From Flavobacteriales bacterium (GTDB lineage Bacteria; Bacteroidota; Bacteroidia; Flavobacteriales; Flavobacteriaceae): DNA of 64,000 nt. A program made the translations under genes and the position numbers. Positions 16,324 to 37,574 of this stretch are shown one piece after another (within the stretch, counting starts at the first letter, position 1; each line of letters opens with the position of its first letter). Below the pieces are notes generated by a model. It saw only the letters and a list, made by a program, of their open reading frames with translations. It did not search any database and was not told where the DNA came from. The stretch spans positions 310,001 to 374,000 of the forward strand of contig JAMOUV010000010.1 in assembly GCA_027067965.1 (NCBI GenBank). The letters are read 5' to 3'.

Positions 16324-16407
16324 GGAGAGGTGCCGGAGTGGTAACGGAGCGGATTGCTAATCCGTGCACGCGAGAGCGTGTCCAGGGTTCGAATCCCTGT
16401 CTCTCCG
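16324..16407 (+). tRNA. tRNA-Ser(GCU)
   Basis: A complete class II cloverleaf is visible. Acceptor GGAGAGG pairs with TCTCTCC, the anticodon loop TTGCTAA carries GCT, a long variable arm is present (CACGCGAGAGCGTG), and the T arm is CAGGG-TTCGAAT-CCCTG. CCA is not encoded. It reads AGC/AGU codons. Confidence 0.95.
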
Positions 16408-16422
16408 CTTTTTTTTATGAGC

Positions 16423-16497
16423 CGGGGTATAGCGCAGCCCGGTTAGCGCGCCTGCTTTGGGAGCAGGAAGTCGCAGGTTCGAATCCTGCTACCCCGA
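16423..16497 (+). tRNA. tRNA-Pro(UGG)
   Basis: Acceptor CGGGGTA pairs with TACCCCG. The anticodon arm is CCTGC-TTTGGGA-GCAGG with TGG, and the T arm is GCAGG-TTCGAAT-CCTGC. CCA is not encoded. It lies 15 bases after tRNA-Ser. Confidence 0.95.
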
Positions 16498-16513
16498 CAT
16501 AAAAAAATCATCC

Positions 16514-16587
16514 GGTCGCGTAGCTCAGCTGGATAGAGCATCTGCCTTCTAAGCAGACGGTCGCAGGTTCGAATCCTGCCGCGATCA
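16514..16587 (+). tRNA. tRNA-Arg(UCU)
   Basis: Acceptor GGTCGCG pairs with CGCGATC (one G-T pair). The anticodon arm TCTGC-CTTCTAA-GCAGA carries TCT, and the T arm is GCAGG-TTCGAAT-CCTGC. CCA is not encoded. Its last nine bases are also the beginning of the first unit of the tandem array that follows. Confidence 0.95.
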
Positions 16588-17117
16588 CACCCTGACGGTC
16601 GTCCCGACGGAATGTCGGGACCGCGATCACACCCTGACGGTCGTCCCGATGAATATCGGGACCGCGATCACACCCTGACGGTCGTCCCGACGGAATGTCG
16701 GGATCGCGATCACGCCCTGACGGTCGTCCCGACGAATGTCGGGACCGCGATCACACCCTGACGGTCGTCCCGACGAATGTCGGGACCGCGATCACACCCT
16801 GACGGTCGTCCCGACGGAATGTCGGGACCGCGATCACACCCGGACGGTCGTCCCGACGGAATGTCGGGATCGCGATCACGCCCTGACGGTCGTCCCGACG
16901 AATGTCGGGACCGCGATCACGCCCTGACGGTCGTCCCGACGGAATGTCGGGACCGCGATCATTCTCAGACGGTCGTCCCGACGAATGTCGGGACCGCGAT
17001 CACACCCTGACGGTCGTCCCGACGGAATGTCGGGACCGCGATCATTCTCAGACGGTCGTCCCGACGCATGTCGGGACTGCGATCACGCCCTGACGGTCGT
17101 CCCGACGTATGTCGGGA
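16579..17117 (+). repeat. 13-copy 41/42-bp tandem array starting in the tRNA-Arg 3' end
   Basis: Thirteen head-to-tail units begin at 16579, 16621, 16662, 16704, 16745, 16786, 16828, 16870, 16911, 16953, 16994, 17036 and 17077. Each opens with a copy of the tRNA-Arg 3' end (CCGCGATCACA or a close variant), continues CCCTGACGGTCG, and closes with the stem TCCCGAC / GTCGGGA around a loop of three to five bases. Unit length alternates between 41 and 42 because the loop holds GAA or GGAA. Units 10 and 12 share a changed segment (ATTCTCAGA). There are no unique spacers, so this is not CRISPR, and no credible gene lies inside. Confidence 0.95.
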
Positions 17118-17162
17118 CAGCATGAGGGTGATTGATAATTTAATGTTTTAATTATTTGATAT

Positions 17163-17507: not shown

Positions 17508-17591
17508 GCCCGAATGGCGGAATTGGTAGACGCGCATGATTCAGGGTCATGTGTCCGCAAGGACGTGCAGGTTCGACTCCTGTTTCGGGCA
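17508..17591 (+). tRNA. tRNA-Leu(CAG)
   Basis: Acceptor GCCCGAA pairs with TTCGGGC. The anticodon arm is CATGA-TTCAGGG-TCATG with CAG, a long variable arm with GTCCGCAAGGAC is present, and the T arm is GCAGG-TTCGACT-CCTGT. CCA is not encoded. It reads CUG codons. Confidence 0.93.
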
Positions 17592-17596
17592 CTTTT

Positions 17597-17626
17597 AAAT
17601 CCGTCCCCGCCGGACGGATTTTTTTA
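17597..17626 (+). terminator. Intrinsic terminator after tRNA-Leu
   Basis: AAATCCGTCC and GGACGGATTT form a 10-bp stem with a five-base loop, followed by a run of T. It ends the tRNA-Leu transcript. Confidence 0.85.
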
Positions 17627-35036: not shown

Positions 35037-35081
35037 GGGGTCTCGATACAAGTCTGTGATCTTAGGACAAGACCGCCGTAT

Positions 35082-35324
35082 TTATATGATACCTTTACTT
35101 TTGAGCCAAATTCTCCCGTCAATGCTCTTAAAAAACATTTCCCGCCGATATGCTTCGCTTTTAGTAGGAAAGGTTTCGAAATAATGTATCACCCACGGCC
35201 GGTAGCCCTTGGTCGAACGGACTCTTCCGGCATTGTGATATTTCAGCCGGTTTTCCAAATTTTTAGTATGGCCGAAATAATACCGGTTATATTTTTCACT
35301 ACGAAGGATGTAAGTATAAAACAA
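35082..35324 (-). CDS. GIY-YIG nuclease-like protein, copy 5
   Basis: The 80-aa product has a single GIY-YIG domain: YTY (3-5) for GIY, YFG (16-18) for YIG, R26 in NRLKYHNAG and E62 in YRREMFFK as the catalytic arginine and glutamate. It ends WLKSKGII. The start is a TTG, because family members begin at this point with M(F)Y.YIL; no ATG is nearby. It is last in the array and is followed by TACGGCGGTCTTG before leaving repeat sequence. It differs from the others mainly at the ends. Confidence 0.8.
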   Translation of the reverse strand: MFYTYILRSEKYNRYYFGHTKNLENRLKYHNAGRVRSTKGYRPWVIHYFETFPTKSEAYRREMFFKSIDGRIWLKSKGII

Positions 35325-35457
35325 GAAATTAAGTATAAATAATTGAGCGGAGACACCCCATAGGGGTAAGGGGGGATTCCCTAAAGGTCCTGTGGAGACC
35401 CCCCGGTCCGCTTGCACGGACAACGGTTTTTCCCGTAGGGACAAGCAAGGCCGCCGA
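35325..35457 (-). pseudogene. tRNA-Ser 3' half with inserts, linker 4
   Basis: From the anticodon arm (CGGCGGTCTTG) to the acceptor end (CCTCTCCGCTCAA), this follows tRNA-Ser(UGA) base for base except for three inserts. They sit in the anticodon loop, the T loop and between the T stem and acceptor. The last insert here contains CCCCTATGGGG. The 5' half of the tRNA is absent. Confidence 0.85.
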
Positions 35458-35700
35458 TTAAATAATTCCGTTATTTTTTAGCCAAATTCTCCCGTCAATG
35501 CTCTTAAAAAACATTTCCCGCCGATATGCTTCGCTTTTAGTAGGAAAGGTTTCGAAATAATGTATCACCCACGGCCGGTAGCCCTTGGTCGAACGGACCC
35601 TTCCGGCATTGTGATATTTCAGCCGGTTTTCCAAATTTTTAGTATGGCCGAAATAATACCGGTTATATTTTTCACTATAAAGGATGTAAGTATAAAACAA
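35458..35700 (-). CDS. GIY-YIG nuclease-like protein, copy 4
   Basis: The protein is nearly identical to the other copies, with the same YTY, YFG, R26 and E62 residues; it has YILYSEK at the start and ends WLKNNGII. The TTG start is at 35700. The frame stays open upstream through the tRNA-derived linker to give a 120-residue version. Copies 3 and 4 are identical in protein sequence, which points to recent duplication or gene conversion. Confidence 0.8.
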   Translation of the reverse strand: MFYTYILYSEKYNRYYFGHTKNLENRLKYHNAGRVRSTKGYRPWVIHYFETFPTKSEAYRREMFFKSIDGRIWLKNNGII

Positions 35701-35833
35701 GAATTTAAGTATAATAAATTGAGCGGAGAGGCCCCGTAGGGGCAAGGGGGGATTCCCTAAAGGTCCTGTGGAGACCCCCCGGTCCGCTTGCACGGACAAC
35801 GGTTTTTCCCGTAGGGACAAGCAAGACTGCCGA
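35701..35833 (-). pseudogene. tRNA-Ser 3' half with inserts, linker 3
   Basis: It has the same organisation as linker 4: anticodon-arm start, insert with TCCCTACGGGA, variable arm GTCCGTGCAAGCGGAC intact, T-loop insert with CCACAGGACC, acceptor-side insert with CCCCTACGGGG, then CCTCTCCG. Confidence 0.85.
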
Positions 35834-36076
35834 TTAAATAATTCCGTTATTTTTTAGCCAAATTCTCCCGTCAATGCTCTTAAAAAACATTTCCCGCCGA
35901 TATGCTTCGCTTTTAGTAGGAAAGGTTTCGAAATAATGTATCACCCACGGCCGGTAGCCCTTGGTCGAACGGACCCTTCCGGCATTGTGATATTTCAGCC
36001 GGTTTTCCAAATTTTTAGTATGGCCGAAATAATACCGGTTATATTTTTCACTATAAAGGATGTAAGTATAAAACAA
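35834..36076 (-). CDS. GIY-YIG nuclease-like protein, copy 3
   Basis: The 80-aa product is identical in protein sequence to copy 4, with all catalytic-type residues of the GIY-YIG family retained. The spacing to copies 2 and 4 is exactly 376 bases. The TTG start is at 36076. Confidence 0.8.
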   Translation of the reverse strand: MFYTYILYSEKYNRYYFGHTKNLENRLKYHNAGRVRSTKGYRPWVIHYFETFPTKSEAYRREMFFKSIDGRIWLKNNGII

Positions 36077-36209
36077 GAATTTAAGTATAATAAATTGAGC
36101 GGAGAGGCCCCGTAGGGGCAAGGGGGGATTCCCTAAAGGTCCTGTGGAGACCCCCCGGTCCGCTTGCACGGACAACGGTTTTTCCCGTAGGGACAAGCAA
36201 GACTGCCGA
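36077..36209 (-). pseudogene. tRNA-Ser 3' half with inserts, linker 2
   Basis: It is the same as linker 3: a 3' tRNA-Ser half from CGGCAGTCTTG to CCTCTCCG with inserts in the anticodon loop, T loop and acceptor side. Confidence 0.85.
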
Positions 36210-36452
36210 TTAAATAATTCCGTTATTTTTTAGCCAAATTCTCCCGTCAATGCTCTTAAAAAACATTTCCCGCCGATATGCTTCGCTTTTAGTAGGAAAG
36301 GTTTCGAAATAATGTATCACCCACGGCCGGTAGCCCTTGGTCGAACGGACCCTTCCGGCATTGTGATATTTCAGCCGGTTTTCCAAATTTTTAGTATGGC
36401 CGAAATAATACCTGTTATATTTTTCATTACGAAGGATGTAAGTATAAAACAA
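36210..36452 (-). CDS. GIY-YIG nuclease-like protein, copy 2
   Basis: The 80-aa product has YILRNEK near the start and ends WLKNNGII; the rest equals the other copies. The TTG start is at 36452. Upstream, the linker frame is open to an ATG that lies in the tRNA anticodon arm (ATGCGGCGG), giving a 125-residue alternative. Confidence 0.8.
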   Translation of the reverse strand: MFYTYILRNEKYNRYYFGHTKNLENRLKYHNAGRVRSTKGYRPWVIHYFETFPTKSEAYRREMFFKSIDGRIWLKNNGII

Positions 36453-36587
36453 GAATTTAAGTATAAAAAATTGAGCGGAGAGGCCCCGTAGGGGCAAGGG
36501 GGGATTCCCTAAAGGTCCTGTGGAGAACCCCCGGTCCGCTTGCACAGATAACGGTTTTTCCCATAGGGACAAGCAAGACCGCCGCAT
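36453..36587 (-). pseudogene. tRNA-Ser 3' half with inserts, linker 1
   Basis: It starts ATGCGGCGGTCTTG, then has a 15-base insert (around TCCCTATGGG) after the second anticodon base, an intact variable arm with small changes, a 17-base T-loop insert, a 15-base acceptor-side insert and CCTCTCCG. The stem segments between inserts match tRNA-Ser(UGA). Confidence 0.88.
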
Positions 36588-36830
36588 TTATATAATACCT
36601 TTACTTTTGAGCCAAATTCTCCCGTCAATACTTTTAAAGAACATTTCCCGCCGATATGCTTCGCTTTTAGTAGGAAAGGTTTCGAAATAATGTATCACCC
36701 ATGGCCGGTAGCCCTTGGTTGAACGGACCCTTCCGGCATTGTGATATTTCAGCCGGTTTTCCAAATTTTTAGTATGGCCGAAATAATACCTGTTATATTT
36801 TTCACTACGAAGGATGTAAGTATAAAACAA
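36588..36830 (-). CDS. GIY-YIG nuclease-like protein, copy 1 (next to tRNA-Ser)
   Basis: The 80-aa product has the GIY-YIG layout (YTY 3-5, YFG 16-18, R26, E62) and ends WLKSKGII. Single-domain proteins of this kind (UvrC N-terminal or YhbQ-like) are predicted nucleases of poorly known role. The start is a TTG only 23 bases from the tRNA-Ser 3' end, with no separate promoter visible. It must depend on the tRNA transcript or on readthrough. Confidence 0.82.
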   Translation of the reverse strand: MFYTYILRSEKYNRYYFGHTKNLENRLKYHNAGRVRSTKGYRPWVIHYFETFPTKSEAYRREMFFKSIDGRIWLKSKGII

Positions 36831-36853
36831 GAATTTAAGTATAAAAAATTGAG

Positions 36854-36940
36854 CGGAGAGGGGGGGATTCGAACCCCCGGTCCGCTTGCACGGACAACGG
36901 TTTTCAAGACCGCCGCATTAAACCGCTCTGCCACCTCTCC
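36854..36940 (-). tRNA. tRNA-Ser(UGA)
   Basis: This is a complete class II cloverleaf on the minus strand. Acceptor GGAGAGG pairs with CCTCTCC, the anticodon loop CTTGAAA holds TGA, the long variable arm is GTCCGTGCAAGCGGAC, and the T arm is GGGGG-TTCGAAT-CCCCC. CCA is not encoded. It is the only uninterrupted copy in the locus and reads UCA codons. Confidence 0.95.
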
Positions 36941-36957
36941 AAAATATATTTTTAAAT

Positions 36958-37454
36958 CAAGACCGCCGCATTTCCCGCAGGGATCCTGTGGACAACCACT
37001 CTGCCACCTCTCCGTATTTTAATGAACAATTTTTTTGGTCCGCTTGCACGGACAACGGTTTTTCCCATAGGGAAAAGCAAGACCGCCGCATTTCCAATAG
37101 GGATCCTGTGGACAACCACTCTGCCACCTCTCCGTATTTTAATGAACAATTTTTTTGGTCCGCTTGCACGGACAACGGTTTTTCCCGTAGGGAAAAGCAA
37201 GACCGCCGCATTTCCCATAGGGATCCTGTGGACAACCACTCTGTCATCTCTCCGTATTTTAATGAACAATTTTTTCGGTCCGTTTGCATGGATAATGGTT
37301 TTTCCCGTAGGGACAAGCAAGACCGCCGCATTTCCCATAGGGATCCTGTGGACAACCACTCTGCCACCTCTCCGTATTTTTAATGAACAATTTTTTCGGT
37401 CCGTTTGCACGGACAACGGTTTTTCCCGTAGGGAAAAGCAAGACCGCCGCATTT
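36958..37454 (-). repeat. 120-bp tandem array of interrupted tRNA-Ser 5' parts
   Basis: Full units lie at 37254-37373, 37134-37253 and 37014-37133, with partial ones at each end (37374-37454 and 36958-37013). On the minus strand each full unit reads: acceptor and D arm (GGAGAGGTGGCAGAG), a D-loop insert (GTCCACAGGATCCCTATGGG), the anticodon-arm 5' side, an insert around TTCCCTAYGGGAA, the 3' side and variable arm, then an AT-rich tail with TTGTTCATTAAAATAC. The T arm and acceptor 3' strand are missing, so no unit can be a working tRNA. Confidence 0.92.
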
Positions 37455-37574
37455 CTTGTAAAAATATTAATCTCGCGAGGTCTTTAATTCTTATGAAAAA
37501 TCATATCGATATGTAAAAGAGCATTTTTTGAAATTAACCGAGATTTCTCCGGGAATTTCCTTTTTTCGTGGGCA

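Follow-up and report, generated by a model that had tools for sequence, protein, structure and literature searches.

How can an intact tRNA gene come to be followed by a row of thirteen altered copies of its own 3' half? This question is raised by the tRNA-Arg(TCT) gene in a stretch of 64,000 nucleotides from a Flavobacteriales genome, which as a whole is called the window below. The first-pass annotation had described a thirteen-copy repeat behind this gene, consisting of the last nine or more bases of the tRNA and a palindrome, and had proposed the 3' end of the tRNA as the origin of the array. Tandem Repeats Finder locates the array at 16579-17118, with a period of 41 (or 83), 13.0 copies and 91-94% matches, which confirms an array with units of 41 or 42 bp at this place. 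Its unit 1 (16579-16620) shares the 10 last bases of the tRNA-Arg(TCT) gene, and growth from the tRNA 3' end is thereby borne out. With respect to the composition of the unit, tRNA tail and palindrome are both present, but the tRNA-derived part is longer than had been described.

T-arm exchange in the tRNA-Arg array

Because the sequence GACGGTCG that precedes each palindrome is the variable loop of tRNA-Arg, the unit is a tRNA 3' half in which the T arm is replaced. It consists of the variable loop GACGGTCG, a hairpin TCCCGAC-loop-GTCGGGA in the place of the T arm, and the acceptor strand CCGCGATCACA. When the unit (tGACGGTCG-TCCCGACGGAATGTCGGGA-CCGCGATCACA) is aligned with tRNA-Arg (aGACGGTCG-CAGGTTCGAATCCTG-CCGCGATCACA), the T arm is seen to have given way to an unrelated hairpin of like length with the same closing G-C pair, whereas the variable loop is retained, as is the 3' acceptor strand. 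We use the term "arm swap" for such an exchange of a tRNA arm for an unrelated hairpin.

A perfect 7-bp palindrome is found in all 13 units, as TCCCGAC/GTCGGGA in 12 of them and, with a paired change, as TCCCGAT/ATCGGGA in the remaining one, whereas the loops differ (GGAAT, GAAT, GCAT, GTAT). Substitutions affect 2 of 182 stem bases, forming the one compensated pair, versus 16 of 299 bases in the tRNA-derived part. The T-loop sequence GTTC is absent throughout the array. The variant CATTCTCAGACGGTCG, present in two units (at 16953 and 17036), matches the tRNA further upstream (CAGACGGTCG). A reversed control of the palindrome pattern gave zero matches in the same genome. The features of the array, its surroundings and the tRNA-Ser(TGA) locus are collected in the table.

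Table. Positions of the tRNA-Arg array, its neighbors and the tRNA-Ser(TGA) locus within the window.
Feature	Position	Strand	Evidence
tRNA-Ser(GCT), opens the tRNA cluster	16324..16408	+	ARAGORN, Rfam
tRNA-Pro(TGG)	16423..16498	+	ARAGORN, Rfam
tRNA-Arg(TCT), intact; its T arm GCAGG-TTCGAAT-CCTGC is exchanged in the array units	16514..16588	+	ARAGORN, Rfam
Array of thirteen arm-swapped tRNA-Arg 3' halves, 41/42 bp each	16579..17118	+	Tandem Repeats Finder
Unit 1 palindrome TCCCGAC-GGAAT-GTCGGGA, in the T-arm place	16602..16620	+	Unit/tRNA comparison
Unit 2 palindrome TCCCGAT-GAAT-ATCGGGA, compensated pair change	16644..16661	+	
Unit 13 palindrome, the last; no tRNA part after it	17100..17117	+	
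Thioredoxin-like ORF; directly after the tRNA cluster in array-free relatives L022, L048	17163..17498	+	PF00085
tRNA-Leu(CAG)	17508..17592	+	ARAGORN
Intrinsic terminator-like site, first strong one downstream of tRNA cluster and array	17597..17621	+	
3' array of tRNA-Ser, fragments alternating with five GIY-YIG ORFs, period 376	35068..36852	-	
GIY-YIG nuclease copy 5	35088..35321	-	
GIY-YIG nuclease copy 4	35461..35697	-	
GIY-YIG nuclease copy 3	35837..36073	-	
GIY-YIG nuclease copy 2	36213..36449	-	
GIY-YIG nuclease copy 1, 3' of tRNA-Ser(TGA)	36594..36827	-	PF01541
tRNA-Ser(TGA), intact	36853..36940	-	ARAGORN, Rfam
5' array of tRNA-Ser, palindromes in D loop and anticodon loop, period 120	36954..37455	-	

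The array unit has no second site in its own 2.05-Mb, 33-contig genome, and the array was therefore rejected as a dispersed genome repeat. Likewise, an arm-swapped Arg array of the window type is missing from all eight further genomes of the genus, and a genus-conserved array was rejected on these grounds; in relatives, the tRNA cluster runs directly into the thioredoxin-like gene. Promoter-like TATATTTGC motifs precede the tRNAs. When the 64-kb window was searched with Rfam at gathering thresholds, RF00005 alone matched and the rtT RNA model remained unmatched. No GIY-YIG hit was obtained near the tRNA-Arg array (C10:326514). Between tRNA-Arg and the thioredoxin ORF there is no integrase and no inserted DNA beyond the 41-bp units, so the array does not represent tandem attachment sites of an integrative element. 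A phage origin was rejected as well, since the array had no match in the phage collection; plasmid matches spanned about 10-13% of the query only, around the tRNA itself.

Arm-swapped copies and GIY-YIG genes at other tRNA loci of the genome

A likeness of the array to the tRNA-Ser locus in the same window had been pointed out earlier; it holds and goes deeper than noted, since the arm swap is common to both. At tRNA-Ser(TGA), the palindromes of partial tRNA copies interrupt the D loop, the anticodon (CTTG^AAAA) or the T loop (GGTTC^GAATC), or precede the acceptor strand; in the fragments of the 3' array they occupy the anticodon loop, the T loop and the T/acceptor junction. The accompanying GIY-YIG ORF, present in five copies, encodes 80 aa and belongs to PF01541, with Y5, Y16, G18, R26, H30 and E62 invariant. 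Partial tRNA copies in which a palindrome interrupts or replaces an arm are thus found at both loci, and a same-strand GIY-YIG ORF 3' of the intact tRNA is found five times at tRNA-Ser and is missing at tRNA-Arg. The tRNA-Ser(TGA) arrays (35068-37455, minus strand) are open in frame into the GIY-YIG ORFs, with ORFs of 120-125 aa beginning within tRNA copies, and automated annotation of this region may yield nucleases whose N-terminus is encoded by a tRNA copy.

Arm-swapped tRNA fragments occur in the same genome at tRNA-Ser(TGA), Asp, Met, Ala and Pro(AGG), and eight of the nine non-UvrC GIY-YIG ORFs of the genome lie directly 3' of Ser(TGA), Asp or Met tRNAs. The tRNA-Asp and tRNA-Met loci are organized like the tRNA-Ser locus, each with GIY-YIG genes of its own. 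At tRNA-Ala and tRNA-Pro(AGG) a single T-arm-swapped fragment was found in each case (GGTCG-TCCCTACGACTGTAGGGA-TCGGCTCCACC and GGTCG-TTCCGACGGCTGTCGGAA-TCATCC, respectively), and no nuclease was seen at either. The tRNA-Asp array, which is split over the start of contig C11 (L320) and the end of contig C10 (L093), consists of 97-bp pseudo-tRNA units between a promoter-like region and the intact tRNA-Asp. As it sits on the promoter side, the intact tRNA-Asp may be transcribed through several arm-swapped copies. Contigs of the assembly break inside two sister arrays, those of tRNA-Met and tRNA-Asp (C3 end; C10 end/C11 start), and exact copy numbers in such arrays are therefore uncertain.

The sole stand-alone GIY-YIG gene away from a tRNA (C4:14586, L081) has many CGGCCCTTCGACAAGCTCAGGG-type repeats around it. 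At C7:56063, C10:530008 and C15:97181 (L322-L324), dispersed intergenic repeats that contain AAGTCCCGATAGCTATCGGGACGACGAGACATCTC and TGTCCGCCTCAGGCGGGA were noted; their palindromes, although far from tRNAs, have the same form as those of the tRNA copies. The genome encodes a single Y1_Tnp ORF (C7:27287), which has no TCCCGA palindrome nearby.

Distribution of arm swaps and tRNA-linked nucleases in other genomes

Within the genus, an independent case at the same tRNA is provided by G001, where tandem tRNA-Arg copies are split in the T loop (GGTTC[TCCGCAGGATCCCTACGGGA]GAATCC). The 18-mer TCCCGACGAATGTCGGGA, which occurs in several units of the Arg array, has an exact match in the tRNA-Asp locus of G005, also of the same genus, and the hairpin is therefore not derived from tRNA-Arg. 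In another genus (G020, L168), tRNA-Arg(TCT) is flanked on both sides by copies in which the anticodon arm is swapped for CCCGC..GCGGG, together with two GIY-YIG genes; this locus is an Arg-linked nuclease of the arm-swap class. A different kind of repeat follows tRNA-Arg(TCT) in further genera, as arrays in L164 and L165 and as single copies in L166 and L167: these rtT-like repeats comprise tRNA nt 59-75 plus a terminator, recur every roughly 165 bp and start with the second half of the T loop. They are free of arm swaps, and no GIY-YIG gene was seen alongside.

A search for arm swaps that does not depend on the tRNA-Arg sequence employed the pattern GGTCG + TCCCGA-N3-9-TCGGGA in 395 genomes. 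The pattern was present in 25 of them and its reversed control gave no match. Most matches are T-arm-swapped 3' halves of the adjoining tRNA (Asp, Gly, Pro and the window's Arg), so that the junction GGTCG[TCCCGA..TCGGGA] is common to Asp, Gly and Pro tRNAs of other genomes. An occurrence of the repeat at places unrelated to tRNAs had initially been considered to speak against a tRNA-derived array. The unit itself is found nowhere else in its genome, and the swap pattern lies mostly beside the matching tRNA, but three or four single, chance-like matches do lie elsewhere. Viral contigs yielded four matches; no tRNA was found there, and a GIY-YIG motif was near one of them. A GIY-YIG gene accompanies most of the tRNA-linked matches. 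At the tRNA-Asp arrays of G194 and G054 it is absent within the 1.5 kb read on each side. As nuclease-less swapped arrays recur in this way, the tRNA-Arg array belongs to a recurring class, in which it is one of the members without a nuclease.

A profile of 14 tRNA-linked nucleases was used as the query for a survey of the phylum, and relatives were detected in 73 of 118 sampled genomes. In our judgement this phylum is Bacteroidota, given the protein content, the promoter-like motifs ahead of the tRNAs and those relatives that carry a name. A tRNA was located at most 300 bp upstream on the same strand for 89 of 190 distinct GIY-YIG copies and on the opposite strand for none; since the loci were picked by similarity to linked nucleases, the resulting 47% linkage should not be taken as the rate for GIY-YIG genes in general, but the strand bias is unaffected by this choice. 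The distance to the upstream tRNA ranged from 1 to 242 bp (median 51 bp) and 24 tRNA species were involved. Linkage to tRNA-Ser(TGA) was encountered, for example, in Melioribacteraceae, Cyclobacteriaceae and Rhodohalobacter, and linkage to tRNA-Gly in a Liptonbacteria genome.

Partial tRNA copies beside the nucleases contained 170 distinct interruptions, most often of the anticodon arm (75), followed by the T arm (55) and the D arm (25). Of the 170 interruptions, 55% included a stem of 6 bp or more, compared with 2.6% after shuffling, and the palindromes most often begin with TCC (59 of 105). The T-loop motif is destroyed by 47 of the 55 T-arm interruptions, 17 of which lie exactly at GTTC^RA. 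In the anticodon arm, a mean of 18 nt replaces an arm of 17 nt.

The lineages of the nucleases track tRNA identity rather than host, judging from a tree of 84 tRNA-linked sequences that required 39 changes of tRNA label, compared to a mean of 63.6 (minimum 59) when labels were shuffled within host families; the underlying alignment is short and many forks of the tree are unresolved. For tRNA-Asp, separate nuclease lineages are associated with differing swap positions (35-38^51 and 50^59). Within one tRNA species the tie between swap position and nuclease relatedness is weak (Spearman 0.11, permutation p 0.006), and a strict tie between lineage and swap position was rejected. The tRNA-linked nucleases retain the GIY-YIG catalytic residues. 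Their nearest solved relatives are UPF0213 proteins and the structure-specific SLX1 (PDB 1ywl, 1zg2, 7cq2) rather than I-TevI, and sequence-specific cutting is therefore not assured. SLX1 possesses a further domain and acts with its partner SLX4, and we know of no reported link of UPF0213 proteins to tRNA genes.

Origin of the array and known systems

The reading we prefer, at a probability of roughly 0.5, is that the tRNA-Arg array was produced by a GIY-YIG element specific to a tRNA gene, was amplified in tandem and is without a nuclease, the swapped arms having removed the cut site. According to this proposal, a free-standing GIY-YIG nuclease of small size that is devoted to a single tRNA gene would cut this gene in a hairpin arm, for example in the T loop at GTTC^GA or in the anticodon arm, and recombination repair between the gene and adjoining partial copies would generate tandem tRNA fragments, which may or may not include the nuclease gene. 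Once its cut arm had been swapped for an unrelated palindrome, a copy would be uncuttable and would persist and multiply, and one intact copy would be retained on account of the cell's need for the tRNA. At tRNA-Arg, only fragments would remain, in line with the tRNAs, and unequal crossing-over would then alter their number; the array may be the remnant after a former Arg-specific nuclease was lost, or may be acted on in trans. Certain observations speak against the involvement of a nuclease. A GIY-YIG gene is absent at tRNA-Arg, and the eight genus relatives lack an Arg array of this type, so that the nuclease link at this array is drawn by analogy. Also, the intact tRNA beside each nuclease would stay cleavable, and the proposal does not account for its sparing.

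The same absence of a nuclease at tRNA-Arg is what would be expected if the array had grown passively, the tRNA 3' half being duplicated by slippage or unequal crossing-over in an rtT-like manner and one copy receiving a small mobile or self-propagating palindrome of the genome ahead of amplification, with the GIY-YIG genes as mere hitch-hikers at tRNA loci. The rtT-like tRNA-Arg repeats of several genera, beside which no such genes were seen, and the dispersed intergenic repeats with palindromes of the same form are in line with this possibility. We nevertheless consider it rather unlikely, as 24 tRNA species have swapped copies together with GIY-YIG genes, the strand bias being absolute, and as the palindromes nearly always sit in tRNA arms, often replacing an arm of similar length, which is unlike random insertion. 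A misassembly, affecting the copy number or the array itself, would fit with contigs ending within the sister arrays at tRNA-Asp and tRNA-Met. It is hardly credible here, given that the units bear distinct variants in an ordered series, that the array is joined to unique sequence on both sides and that like arm-swapped copies exist in single-contig genomes such as G067 and G103.

The first-pass annotation had also suggested that the units are sources of short hairpin RNAs or serve as false sites for RNase Z or for termination, and a regulation of tRNA-Arg processing could be imagined from the tRNA 3' sequence and strong hairpin in each unit and from the conserved stems with their compensated pair. 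The suggested terminator function is not supported by the sequence, as no unit hairpin is followed by a T run, no terminator-like site was found inside the array and the first strong one is located past tRNA-Leu; independent hairpin terminators were rejected on these grounds. RNase Z needs an acceptor/T-arm minihelix, but the best fold of the unit is an interrupted hairpin. Nothing was found in favor of a hairpin-RNA or RNase Z function, and since eight further genomes of the genus do without the array, no genus-conserved function depends on it, making a regulatory role of the units very improbable. Another possible benefit to the cell would be that of selected decoys, transcribed arm-swapped tRNA pieces that absorb or resist enzymes attacking tRNAs or the genes for them (integrases, or nucleases of phage or host). 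Hairpin-for-hairpin exchange would keep part of the tRNA fold, the array is in line with the tRNAs and ahead of the first strong terminator, and tRNA supplementation is known to counter a tRNA-cutting defence in T6 (PMC13096335). The RNA of the array region also folds better than shuffled sequences (z -4.4), but this is expected from perfect palindromes alone. As the unit contains the 3' half only, a full acceptor stem or cloverleaf is impossible, and the restriction of the array to one genome of its genus likewise makes a protective role improbable.

tRNA genes are classic landing sites of mobile DNA, and the well-studied tRNA-gene-tied nucleases that we found in the literature are phage homing endonucleases only. 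Small cutting-enzyme genes beside single tRNA genes, among altered tRNA fragments, constitute a widespread pattern that apparently has not been described before; in the literature searched, with subscription papers and preprints outside its scope, we found no account of bacterial loci that combine tRNA-linked GIY-YIG genes and arm-swapped copies of the tRNA. Tentatively, and with less than even confidence, we propose that Bacteroidota and neighboring phyla harbor a large undescribed class of minimal selfish elements, each devoted to one tRNA gene and composed of a GIY-YIG nuclease of 80-105 aa and of tRNA copies immunized by arm-for-hairpin exchange, of which the tRNA-Arg array would be a nuclease-less, array-forming derivative. 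If so, a cellular family in which each tRNA species has its own nuclease lineage, and which leaves behind copies with swapped arms, would supply many natural enzyme/target pairs with which the recognition of a single tRNA gene by a small GIY-YIG domain could be studied. Repeat arrays and assembly breaks at tRNA loci would find an explanation, and altered arms could be tested as a form of immunity to cutting. Such a family connects directly to the 2026 finding of tRNA gene amplification by SegB in phages.

Among known systems, the rtT RNA repeats of the E. coli tyrT operon are 178 bp long and each contain the tRNA-Tyr 3' end. Like them, the tRNA-Arg array is a tandem row downstream of a tRNA gene in which every unit starts from the 3' end of the tRNA, but its unit has 41 bp instead of 178, the T arm is replaced by a palindrome and the rtT model of Rfam does not match; the rtT-like arrays at tRNA-Arg in other genera of the family look unlike it as well. 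Rickettsia palindromic elements of about 100-150 bp are inserted in genes, including RNA genes, and the host gene stays functional, whereas here palindromes of 15-35 bp replace arms of extra, non-functional copies. REP/BIME sequences are short GC-rich palindromes in many copies that are mobilized by RAYT (TnpA-REP, a Y1 transposase); in contrast, the palindromes of the tRNA copies sit in tRNA arms beside tRNA genes, and the lone Y1_Tnp of the genome has no TCCCGA palindrome close to it.

The closest parallel is SegB, a GIY-YIG homing endonuclease of T-even phages that cuts within tRNA genes, prefers the motif RAWTSGAAC and drives tandem amplification of tRNA-Tyr and segB through recombination (PMC13096335). 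By our own reading, the reverse complement of this motif, GTTCSAWTY, would correspond to the tRNA T loop. Because swaps are most frequent in the anticodon arm (75 of 170 interruptions), the SegB motif cannot be the general target and was rejected as a universal one. SegB is nonetheless a working precedent for the presumed cutting by the bacterial tRNA-linked nucleases and for break-induced amplification. Its locus resembles theirs in having a free-standing GIY-YIG gene adjoining tRNA genes. A GIY-YIG catalytic domain lies beside the tRNA at the tRNA-Ser locus and is missing at the tRNA-Arg array. SegB differs from the bacterial loci in being of phage rather than cellular origin and in that no arm-swapped tRNA copies or palindromes are reported for it (PMC13096335, in which the word "palindrome" is absent). 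It also represents one nuclease near several tRNAs, whereas the bacterial lineages each tend toward one tRNA species.
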